A stretch of 64,000 nucleotides of DNA from Burkholderia sp. HI2500. Its GTDB lineage: Bacteria > Pseudomonadota > Gammaproteobacteria > Burkholderiales > Burkholderiaceae. Numbering within the stretch: position 1 is the stretch's first letter; each line of letters opens with the position of its first letter. Location: assembly GCF_002223055.1 (NCBI RefSeq), contig NZ_NKFL01000004.1:124001-188000 (forward strand), in the 5' to 3' direction. The position numbers and the translations under genes are program-made. The notes beneath the pieces were generated by a model that did no database searches, had not been told where the DNA came from, and saw only the letters and a program-made list of their open reading frames with translations. Positions 22,449-25,267 of the stretch are shown here, piece by piece.

Positions 22449-22860
<412 letters not shown>

Positions 22861-22872
22861 GGTTCGAATGCG

Positions 22873-22932: not shown

Positions 22933-23355
22933 TCAGCCGGCGACGATGTCGAACGAATGCGTGAGTTCGGCCGTCTTCGCGATCATGATCGACGCGGAGC
23001 AATACTTGTCGTGCGACAGGTTGATCGCGCGTTCGACCGTGGACGGGTTCAGGTTGCGCCCGGTGACGGTGAAGTGGAAGTGCACCTTCGTGAACACCTT
23101 CGGATCTTCGCTCGCGCGCTCGGCCTTCAGCGTGACCGAGCAGCCGCTGACTTCCTGGCGGCTCTTCTTCAGGATCAGCACGACGTCATAGGCCGTGCAG
23201 CCGCCGGTGCCGAGCAGCACCATTTCCATCGGGCGCGGCGCGAGGTTGTGGCCGCCGCCTTCGGGCGCGCCATCCATCGTGACGAGGTGGCCGCTGCCGG
23301 TCTCGGCGGAAAACGCCATGCCGTCCTGGCCCATCCAGCTTACTTTGCATTCCAT
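22933..23355 (-). CDS. OsmC/YhfA family protein
   Basis: A 140-residue OsmC-fold protein of the YhfA type. The family cysteine is in LLGTGGCTAYDVVLILKK, and a second cysteine is in SHDKYCSASIMI; in OsmC/Ohr these two reduce organic peroxides, although YhfA-like members are less well understood. ATG 23355 is preferred because GGAGT lies 8 bases upstream; the open frame extends 14 codons further without support. No partner gene is adjacent; it converges on rnpB. Confidence 0.85.
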   Translation of the reverse strand: MECKVSWMGQDGMAFSAETGSGHLVTMDGAPEGGGHNLAPRPMEMVLLGTGGCTAYDVVLILKKSRQEVSGCSVTLKAERASEDPKVFTKVHFHFTVTGRNLNPSTVERAINLSHDKYCSASIMIAKTAELTHSFDIVAG

Positions 23356-23635
23356 GCTTGCACTCCAGCGTTGCCTGATTCGGATTCGATCCGGCATTGT
23401 AGCCCGCTGCGCAACGGACGGCTGATGCGCTGCACGACGCGCAATGCCGGCGCCGCACGAGCGACGCGCCGGACAGCCATTTCCCCCTCGGATTTAGGGG
23501 TTTTGCTCTAGAAGCGGGGCGTTTTCGAGACTGCCAGACGGGATCAGGTGATTGATTTCAAAGGAAAAATGATTTTTTCAAACGAGATGCGAAATATTCC
23601 GCATTATGGTGTTTGATTTCGCAATGCAAATTTTC

Positions 23636-23664
23636 TTGTGAAGTCGGCGACGCATTCGTATAAT
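23636..23664 (+). promoter_or_regulatory. Near-consensus sigma70 promoter of a small RNA
   Basis: TTGTGA at 23636-23641, a 17-base spacer, and a perfect TATAAT at 23659-23664. Predicted start is around 23671. It stands in an AT-rich stretch (23540-23660) and has no protein gene downstream before the terminator at 23734-23762. Confidence 0.8.
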
Positions 23665-23670
23665 GAGCCT

Positions 23671-23762
23671 CATTGGTTGTCGCGCTGCGGCAACCTCCGA
23701 ATGTCTCCTCCACCCTCCTCCTATGGTGGATTGAGCCCGAACCAGCCGTTCGGGCTTTTTTT
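23671..23762 (+). ncRNA. Candidate trans-acting small RNA with anti-Shine-Dalgarno loop
   Basis: A predicted transcript of about 92 nt bounded by a strong promoter and an intrinsic terminator. Three hairpins can be drawn: 23675-23683 with 23687-23695 (9 bp, one G-U); TCCACC 23709-23714 with GGTGGA 23725-23730, displaying CTCCTCCTAT in its loop; and the terminator stem 23734-23756. A further single-stranded CCTCC lies at 23694-23698 and CTCCTCC at 23705-23711. The C-rich segments are complementary to ribosome-binding sites, as in other C-rich bacterial sRNAs. An open frame crosses the region from a GTG at 23638 but is interrupted by nothing coding-like and reads through the terminator, so I do not call a protein. 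Confidence 0.7.
23734..23762 (+). terminator. Terminator of the candidate small RNA
   Basis: AGCCCGAAC (23734-23742), loop CAGCC, GTTCGGGCT (23748-23756), then seven T. The stem is perfect. No T run follows on the minus strand, so it works in the plus direction only. Confidence 0.93.
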
Positions 23763-23814
23763 CGTCCCATGCAAACATCAGCGCGCGGCTTGCGCGCCTC
23801 GCATCCCGGCATCG

Positions 23815-24123
23815 TTATGCCGGTTGCTTTGCGTCCGACTGTGACGTCGCGCCGCCGGGCGCCGTGCCGGGCGTGCGTGTGTCAGGTGCAGGAACGTGGA
23901 CGGCCGACGCATGACCATGGCCGCGCGCGCAGAAGTGCCGGACGCGCTCGCGCACCGCGCGCAGGCGGGCGACGCGATCCTCGGCATGGGCGGCGCGGGC
24001 TTCGGTAATGCGGGTATCGAGTGCGTCGAGCTTGGCTTCGCAGTCGGTGCGGGCGGCGACGGCAGGCGCCGCGGCGGCCAGCAGCGCGGCCGCAAGGAAG
24101 GGCGTAAGTCGTTGATTCATCAT
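23815..24123 (-). CDS. Small secreted DUF1090-like protein
   Basis: A 102-residue protein with a signal peptide (hydrophobic residues about 8-23, cleavage after AVAA or nearby) and a short helical domain with two cysteines in the spacing seen in DUF1090/YqjC: CEAKLDALDTRITEA then RLRAVRERVRHFC. A low-complexity tail of about 30 residues follows. It is probably periplasmic with one disulfide. Function unknown. Two adjacent ATGs (24123, 24120) are possible starts and there is no clear ribosome site. Confidence 0.65.
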   Translation of the reverse strand: MMNQRLTPFLAAALLAAAAPAVAARTDCEAKLDALDTRITEARAAHAEDRVARLRAVRERVRHFCARGHGHASAVHVPAPDTRTPGTAPGGATSQSDAKQPA

Positions 24124-24434
24124 GCTTGTTTGTTGTTTTCCAGATTCGGCCGGTCTGGCGCGGGATGGTCATGTGCCGCGCGTCGATGGGTGCCTCCCCG
24201 GGCGCTCGGTTCGCCTGGCTTGTCGGGGCACGAACGGATTTTGGCCCATTTCGGCCGCCGTGGACACGGGAAGTGGATTCCCTTTGACCGCGTTGCCGTA
24301 TTTCCTTTATAATTCAGGGCTTTTCCGCATTCATGCCCACGGAAAAAGAACAGGGAGAGCCTGCACCGCGCCTCGAAGCGCACACAGACAAGCAGGAAGA
24401 ACACACCGGGCTAAGCAATTTTTTTGGATCGATC
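24124..24434. other. Intergenic region with the rplM promoter and leader
   Basis: No protein gene is seen. The first 150 bases should hold the promoter of the minus-strand DUF1090 gene. The second half carries the strong rplM promoter (24284-24313) and a leader of about 115 bases with a T7 run at 24420-24426 just before the ribosome-binding region. Confidence 0.6.
24284..24313 (+). promoter_or_regulatory. Promoter of rplM-rpsI
   Basis: TTGACC at 24284-24289, an 18-base spacer, and TATAAT at 24308-24313. The strength fits a ribosomal protein operon. It implies a leader of about 115 nt, long enough for autogenous control. Confidence 0.78.
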
Positions 24435-24863
24435 ATGAAGACGTTTTCCGCAAAAGCCCATGAGGTGACGCGCGAATGGTACGTGATTGACGCGACGGAT
24501 AAGGTTCTCGGCCGTGTTGCCAGCGAAGTGGCACGCCGTCTGCGCGGCAAGCACAAGCCTGAGTTCACCCCGCACGTCGACACTGGTGATTTCATCATCA
24601 TCATCAACGCAAGCAAGTTGAAGGTCACGGGCAACAAGACTCTGGACAAGAAGTACTACCGTCACTCGGGCTACCCGGGCGGTATCTATGAAACGACGTT
24701 CGGCAAGATGCAAGAACGCTTCCCGGGCCGCGCGCTCGAGAAAGCGGTCAAGGGCATGCTGCCGAAGGGCCCGCTCGGCTACGCGATGATCAAGAAGCTG
24801 AAGGTCTACGCTGAAGCTACGCATCCGCATTCGGCGCAACAGCCGAAGGCGCTCGAGATCTAA
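24435..24863 (+). CDS. rplM: Large ribosomal subunit protein L13 (uL13)
   Basis: A 142-residue early-assembly protein of the 50S subunit. Family features include the [19 protein letters not shown] start, the GDFIIIINA strand, and the [14 protein letters not shown] segment (here [14 protein letters not shown]). The ATG at 24435 gives the standard length. rpsI follows 11 bases later in the order conserved across bacteria. In E. coli L13 represses its own operon through the leader; the long leader here would allow the same, though that is inference. Confidence 0.98.
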
Positions 24864-24874
24864 GGGGAGCCCAC

Positions 24875-25267
24875 ATGATCGGTAACTGGAACTACGGTAC
24901 GGGCCGCCGCAAGAGCGCAGTCGCACGTGTCTTCATCAAGGCTGGCAAGGGCGACATCATCGTCAACGGCAAGCCCATCGCTGACTACTTCTCGCGCGAA
25001 ACGTCGCTGATGATCGTGCGTCAACCGCTGGAACTCACGAACCACGGCCAGACGTTCGACATCAAGGTCAACGTCAACGGCGGCGGCGAAACGGGTCAGG
25101 CAGGTGCAGTGCGCCACGGCATCACCCGTGCACTGATCGACTACGATGCGACGCTGAAGCCGTCGCTGTCGAACGCAGGCTTCGTCACGCGCGATGCACG
25201 TGAAGTCGAGCGTAAGAAGGTTGGTCTGCGCAAGGCACGTCGCGCAAAGCAGTTCTCGAAGCGTTAA
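24875..25267 (+). CDS. rpsI: Small ribosomal subunit protein S9 (uS9)
   Basis: A 130-residue 30S protein. It shows the [19 protein letters not shown] start, the [19 protein letters not shown] central motif, and the basic C-terminal tail [17 protein letters not shown] whose final arginine reaches the P-site tRNA. AGGGGAG precedes the ATG. Co-transcribed with rplM and ended by the terminator at 25311-25343. Confidence 0.98.

Follow-up and report, generated by a model that had tools for sequence, protein, structure and literature searches.

The locus and its predicted transcript

The window, the whole 64,000-nucleotide stretch of Burkholderia sp. HI2500 that we analysed, carries a short intergenic element between an osmC-like gene and rplM-rpsI: a candidate promoter, a predicted three-hairpin RNA and an intrinsic terminator (Table 1). 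TATAAT with TTGTGA at 17-base spacing, as reported in the initial annotation, is present at this place, and the promoter gives 10 of 12 matches. The 2.5-kb region contains four promoter-like sites; 50 shuffles gave 0.3 on average. An opposite-strand promoter-like site (TTTGCA-16-CATAAT, window 23630-23603, minus strand) is directed at the osmC-like gene, so that a single AT-rich stretch may drive the sRNA and osmC in opposite directions. The span from the predicted +1 to the end of the T7 run, first put at about 92 nt, is exactly 92 nt.

Table 1. Coordinates of features at the sRNA locus, numbered from the first nucleotide of the window
Feature	Position	Strand	Basis and remarks
osmC-like gene, upstream neighbour	22933..23397	-	Pfam PF02566, 63.3 bits; in 65/65 genus loci
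-35 element TTGTGA	23636..23641	+	AT-rich, mostly conserved stretch; divergence 0.131 over 23626-23641 (orthologue alignment)
-10 element TATAAT	23659..23664	+	Pairwise divergence 0.016 vs 0.364 in spacer (64 distinct sequences)
ncS27-type sRNA, predicted primary transcript, 92 nt	23671..23762	+	Sequence and fold, both ends inferred; length equals published ncS27
Hairpin 1	23675..23695	+	Fold; unmatched in the three best paralogues of the same genome (alignments compared)
Double-hairpin core (RF02278 match)	23702..23763	+	73.4 bits, gathering score 50; approximately the published processed short form
Anti-Shine-Dalgarno stretch 1, UGUCUCC, single-stranded	23702..23708	+	Fold; 64 distinct sequences without variation
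Hairpin 2, UCCACC/GGUGGA	23709..23730	+	Fold; pair counts in genus and wide alignments
Anti-Shine-Dalgarno stretch 2, CUCCUCC, loop 2	23715..23721	+	Fold, conservation; with the next base contains CCUCCU
Intrinsic terminator (23733-23757) and T7 tail	23733..23762	+	Sequence, fold, wide-set covariation
102-aa ORF between sRNA and rplM	23815..24123	-	DUF1090, 24.2 bits, just under cut-off 24.4; in 51/65 genus loci
rplM (ribosomal protein L13), start of rplM-rpsI	24435..24863	+	Pfam PF00572; neighbour in 64/65 genus loci
rpsI (ribosomal protein S9)	24875..25267	+	Pfam PF00380

Folding of nucleotides 23671-23763 (93 nt) recovered the three-hairpin RNA that had been proposed, at -38.7 kcal/mol and a z-score of -5.25, with none of 200 shuffles as good. 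Hairpin 2 has the described stem and loop (CUCCUCCUAU), and the terminator with its T7 tail lies where it had been placed; its stem has 10 pairs, the outermost a G.U, and two T's of the tail (23756-23762) are paired. Two stretches that had been called single-stranded are so in part: the first four bases of CTCCTCC (23705-23711) are free and the last three are paired in stem 2, and the last three bases of CCTCC (23694-23698) are free and the first two close hairpin 1.

The sole genus locus without rplM as a neighbour (L080) stops at a contig edge. The 102-residue ORF is 59-91% identical in 50 other genus loci; it was not found in 13 more divergent genus loci, where rplM lies closer, or in one genus locus cut by a contig edge. 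rplM has a promoter-like site of its own, TTGACC-18-TATAAT, at 24284-24313. A class A bacterial RNase P RNA (window 22451-22862, plus strand, 292 bits) lies near the osmC-like gene.

Match to RF02278 and probable identity with ncS27

At gathering scores, Rfam has two matches in the whole window: the RNase P RNA and RF02278, 'Betaproteobacteria toxic small RNA', which matches the core over its full length (model positions 1-64). The sRNA had been presented as unannotated; it is already in Rfam and has been characterised in B. cenocepacia as ncS27. The proposed sRNA, independent, rich in C and with anti-Shine-Dalgarno stretches, is in line with what has been published on this orthologue. Membership of the window copy in the Neisseria family RF02877 (NmsRb) was rejected (26.9 bits, gathering score 52).

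The family comparisons draw on published work (PMC4603805, PMC5688073, PMC7011215, PMC11722255, PMC10987360, PMC5362039, PMC9973317, PMC4211561). Four RF02278 RNAs have been published for B. cenocepacia J2315: ncS03, ncS05, ncS27 and ncS62 (Sass et al. 2015, 2017). ncS27 is 92 nt long, with an MFE of -37.8 and a z-score of -5.1, and maps to the complement of 3666557-3666648 on J2315 chromosome 1 (Sass et al. 2015, 2017). It is independently transcribed, with a 3' end confirmed by RACE, is processed to a short form resembling its three homologues, and lies among neighbours in alternating orientation (-> <- ->) (Sass et al.). Planktonic cultures grow more slowly when ncS27 is over-expressed, and antisense silencing increases their growth; neither treatment had a significant effect on biofilms (Sass et al.). 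For the double-hairpin RNAs, 55-80% of predicted interactions fall at ribosome-binding sites, with which the CU-rich stretches of ncS27 are predicted to pair (Sass et al.). According to a review that covers Sass et al. 2019, cells that over-express ncS27 grow more slowly on phenylalanine, tyrosine, glycerol and galactose, and the RNA has a role in carbon-source use and in metabolic shutdown upon nutrient loss. For the toxic small RNAs taken together, Northern blots in four strains have been cited, and RF02278 RNAs are reported to inhibit growth when cloned in E. coli (Kimelman et al. 2012, via citing papers).

The window copy shares with ncS27 the length of 92 nt, the extra 5' hairpin ahead of the double-hairpin core, the two CU-rich stretches, the orientation of the neighbours and the Rfam family; compared by published description rather than by sequence alignment, the two show no separating difference. 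The RF02278 model covers the 64-nt core alone, whereas the window copy additionally has hairpin 1. Orthology is assigned here from length, position, orientation and fold, not from a direct alignment with the J2315 sequence. The gene order osmC(-), sRNA(+), 102-residue ORF(-) equals the ncS27 orientation order after reversal. BCAL3349 is presumably the osmC homologue, and we take bdhR1 to be a name of ncS27. bdhR1 is given as an RF02278 RNA in a preprint (PMC11722255).

Anatomy, family membership, conservation, covariation and synteny are observations on the window and its relatives. With these and the published work, we consider it highly probable that the feature is the ncS27 orthologue, an RF02278 double-hairpin RNA with its own promoter that is processed and acts as an anti-Shine-Dalgarno brake on translation. 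An intergenic stretch of the window would then gain an annotation as a named and studied regulator.

The HI2500 genome has five RF02278 matches, four of them over the gathering score. One copy (L004) lies near a LuxI-type autoinducer-synthase gene (PF00765) and in this resembles ncS62 of J2315, which is located near cepI (Sass et al. 2017). A 93-nt model (R2) gives the window copy 118.4 bits and the other four copies 18.3-42.3 bits, a preference that arises by construction because R2 was built from orthologues of the window copy and that copy itself. The fifth match (L005 1501-1569, plus strand; 42.5 bits, under the gathering score) looks degenerate, and its fold is weaker (z -2.5, 3 of 200 shuffles as good).

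Conservation and relatives

The 128 bp spanning promoter and RNA are present in 65 of 65 genus genomes, HI2500 included. Among 64 distinct sequences (of 66, from the 65 genus loci and locus L011), mean pairwise divergence in both UGUCUCC and the loop CUCCUCC is 0.000; stem 2 has 0.00-0.01, hairpin 1 0.048 and the terminator 0.064, and the values for the promoter spacer and the discriminator are 0.364 and 0.411. This is the pattern expected if the CCUCC-type stretches are kept under selection, as for a trans-acting anti-Shine-Dalgarno sRNA. Conservation of the hairpins and the C-rich loop in related genomes, named at the outset as a check, was seen in the genus loci.

Within the genus, hairpin 1 and the terminator show modest covariation; stem 2 is invariant. 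Among 33 distinct RNA sequences, 99.1% of cells pair. Hairpin 1 and the terminator each contain one pair in which both partners have changed, and 33 of 500 shuffles attain this total of two. In stem 2 four of the six pairs never vary and none has changed in both partners, so genus covariation neither proves nor refutes it.

RF02278 was searched in draws of genomes that each included HI2500, with 0 of 14 control genomes matching each time. At E <= 0.001 the family draw gave 137 matching genomes of 150, the order draw 99 of 150 and the class draw 83 of 274; of these, 133, 59 and three, respectively, exceeded the gathering score. The other 191 of the 274 class genomes gave no match at this E-value. 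Because the three are HI2500 and two genomes of the same order, the 80 class genomes of other orders all lie under the gathering score; we take these orders to be the gammaproteobacteria proper. The phylum draw gave matches in 20 of 249 genomes. Only three of these are class genomes from other orders, with four rows at 29.6-34.3 bits; four genomes outside the class, at 29.6-32.5 bits, were taken as background. The element is patchy and its weakest class rows are indistinguishable from background by score. Position rather than score carries the argument for a wider family.

The class set comprises 86 loci in 80 genomes of 56 families; L272 re-covers the place of L058, and three tandem copies lay inside regions already included. 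The L13 gene rplM follows the match on the same strand in 54 of the 80 genomes, from 41 families, at a distance of 90-691 nt, and 59 of the 80 have rplM/rpsI, osmC or coq7 in the flanks (coq7 in 27, osmC in 9); these are lower bounds, because the flanks were 1.5 or 2.5 kb and less at contig ends. There was no match beside rplM in 26 of the 80 genomes, and 21 had none of rplM/rpsI, osmC and coq7 beside it. By arithmetic, rplM would be expected by chance in a 3-5 kb neighbourhood in well below one of 80 genomes of about 3 Mb. The rplM-linked core reads CUCCUCCAUCCUCCUUUGGUGG with few changes and is followed by a GC-rich terminator. Rfam at gathering score gave no sRNA match in the 19 of the 86 class loci that were tested.

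At E <= 0.001 a model built from 24 sequences of the window's order (R1) matched 66 of 252 class genomes, including three from that order; this is a repeat and not an independent test, since R1 and RF02278 rest on related sequences and the genomes are largely the same. For the R1 alignment we used 95 loci (86 class loci, of which 84 matched, and 9 of 20 NmsRb loci), which gave 101 matches. In this wide alignment (A4, 95 distinct rows), 91.4% of cells pair, 13 of 15 pairs are changed on both sides, and doubly changed cells number 226, compared with 43.2 in shuffles and 25-37 in slid controls; this covariation is favoured because A4 was fitted to the structure, towards which it leans, and A4 contains some probable chance rows. 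Of the 80 rows with letters at the outermost pair of stem 2, 37 cannot form it. An earlier wide MAFFT alignment misplaced stem 2 and was left out of the counts, for which the R1 model alignment was used.

The rplM-linked extension is strong as conserved sequence and position; as an RNA it is predicted. As far as our literature searches reach, we found no published rplM-linked branch outside the order, and the family has been described as exclusive to betaproteobacteria (PMC7011215).

Two characterised RNAs resemble the window copy. S17 of Bordetella pertussis has a CU-rich 5' end and a CU-rich loop, as has the window copy; its long form is cut by RNase E to a short form of 67 nt, its action is Hfq-dependent and its targets, among them the directly repressed BP2158, are bound at ribosome-binding sites (PMC11722255). 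It differs in its longer 5' part (190 nt in all), is activated by BvgA~P, and leaves exponential growth of E. coli unimpaired (PMC11722255). Its gene adjoins coq7, the gene likewise seen in flanks at class level. NmsRA and NmsRB of Neisseria (NgncR_162/163, RF02877) share with the window copy a 5' hairpin, two anti-Shine-Dalgarno motifs and a terminator; they form a tandem pair, unlike the single window copy. NmsR is reported to control central metabolism in Neisseria and to carry anti-Shine-Dalgarno motifs, which in an NmsR-type locus that we folded (L182) lie in the linker and loop 2.

The NmsRb model matched 24 of 150 genomes of the order. Compared by eye, at least 23 of the 30 NmsRb matches listed overlap RF02278 matches in register, and 5 of the 30 have no overlap among the RF02278 matches listed; of 13 over the gathering score, at least 11 overlap RF02278 matches listed. 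Single sites match both models: G500:C11 with 61.3 bits for NmsRb and 46.2 for RF02278, and G562:C35 with 48.5 and 78.9 bits, respectively. R1 in turn matched 9 of 9 NmsRb-type loci at E <= 0.01 (26.0-55.7 bits). None of rplM/rpsI, osmC and coq7 was found in the flanks of the ten NmsRb-type loci L178-L187, and short CU-rich cores with terminators could converge; both points speak against the link to NmsR. A structural similarity of the double-hairpin RNAs to the NmsRs was noted by Sass et al. (2017); Burkholderia is unmentioned in the main text of two Neisseria NmsR papers, as is Neisseria in the S17 preprint (PMC11722255).

Taken across orders, the RF02278 and NmsRb matches suggest one old beta/gammaproteobacterial family. 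We lean slightly towards the view that the window site is ancestral, beside rplM-rpsI with coq7 and osmC near, that it predates the split of the betaproteobacteria and was often lost, and that the paralogues, S17 and NmsR descend from it. If so, a mimic of the ribosomal anti-Shine-Dalgarno sequence would have been inherited beside ribosomal-protein genes across many families as a general brake on translation, and a family called exclusive to betaproteobacteria would belong to a much larger group. Rfam would then split one family in two, as neither RF02278 nor RF02877 carries a clan, and its gathering scores would leave the branch in other orders undetected. Separate studies of Burkholderia carbon use, the Bordetella virulent phase and the Neisseria metabolic switch would all deal with one regulator and its conserved pairing core.

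Two minor observations concern the class-level loci. L218, L267 and L272 contain two or three tandem RF02278-like units about 130-150 bp apart, recalling the NmsR pair. In 12 of 25 orientable loci (of 27; L049-L051, L053-L055, L064 and L068-L072), the sRNA is followed on its own strand by a tRNA-Gln(CTG) gene at a distance of about 1.1-1.4 kb; in the two loci with both genes read, this gene comes after rplM-rpsI.

Proposed mode of action and alternatives

Pairing with ribosome-binding sites is the obvious reading of a core that would present the 16S anti-Shine-Dalgarno sequence twice, in its 5' tail and in loop 2; it fits the 55-80% of target predictions at such sites, the repression of BP2158 by S17 and the anti-Shine-Dalgarno motifs of NmsR. 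In the mechanism that we propose, a sigma-70 promoter of its own would give rise to the 92-nt RNA, which, by analogy with ncS27 and S17, would be cut near 23701/23702 to a stable core of about 61 nt. Through its two anti-Shine-Dalgarno copies, and probably with the help of Hfq, the core would pair with ribosome-binding sites in a group of mRNAs and block their translation. The net effect under nutrient shortage would be a brake on the uptake and breakdown of amino acids and sugars, and strong over-expression would slow growth. For HI2500, these steps are expected from what has been published on related RNAs: ncS27 for the transcript, its processing and the growth effect, ncS27 (as reviewed) and S17 for target effects, and S17 only for Hfq dependence. 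Since S17 did not impair exponential growth of E. coli, 'toxic' is not a general description of these RNAs.

The position upstream of L13 in 54 class genomes outside the order would also suit a leader or attenuator of rplM-rpsI, with the terminator controlling read-through rather than ending a free regulator. We judge this very unlikely for the window, where an opposite-strand ORF separates the sRNA from rplM and rplM carries its own promoter-like site; moreover, the paralogues are located elsewhere in the genome, and published work describes ncS27 as an sRNA with transcription of its own, whose 3' end was confirmed by RACE.

That the span encodes a small protein, either as a short gene or as part of a dual-function RNA, is less probable still. 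Open frames do traverse the region, and in Bordetella the long S17 form contains a potential frame of 32 residues (PMC11722255). The ORFs that cross the span are unlikely to be genes, because 33 distinct orthologues show one-base length differences inside it, in stem 2 and in the terminator loop, in keeping with the original description of a span without a protein gene. The RNA motifs are invariant in 64 distinct sequences and the stems covary in the wider set, and a coding gene was rejected on the length differences and the covariation.

Membership in the alphaproteobacterial ar14/cuckoo kind has next to no probability. CCUCC-type stretches in a three-hairpin RNA are common to both, and the ar14 model (RF02344) aligns over its full length, but weakly, at 17.4 bits against a gathering score of 58.8; RF02278 gives 73.4 bits. 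On this score the likeness drawn at the outset stands only as an analogy. The Burkholderia double-hairpin RNAs, Bordetella S17 and Neisseria NmsR are better relatives than ar14.
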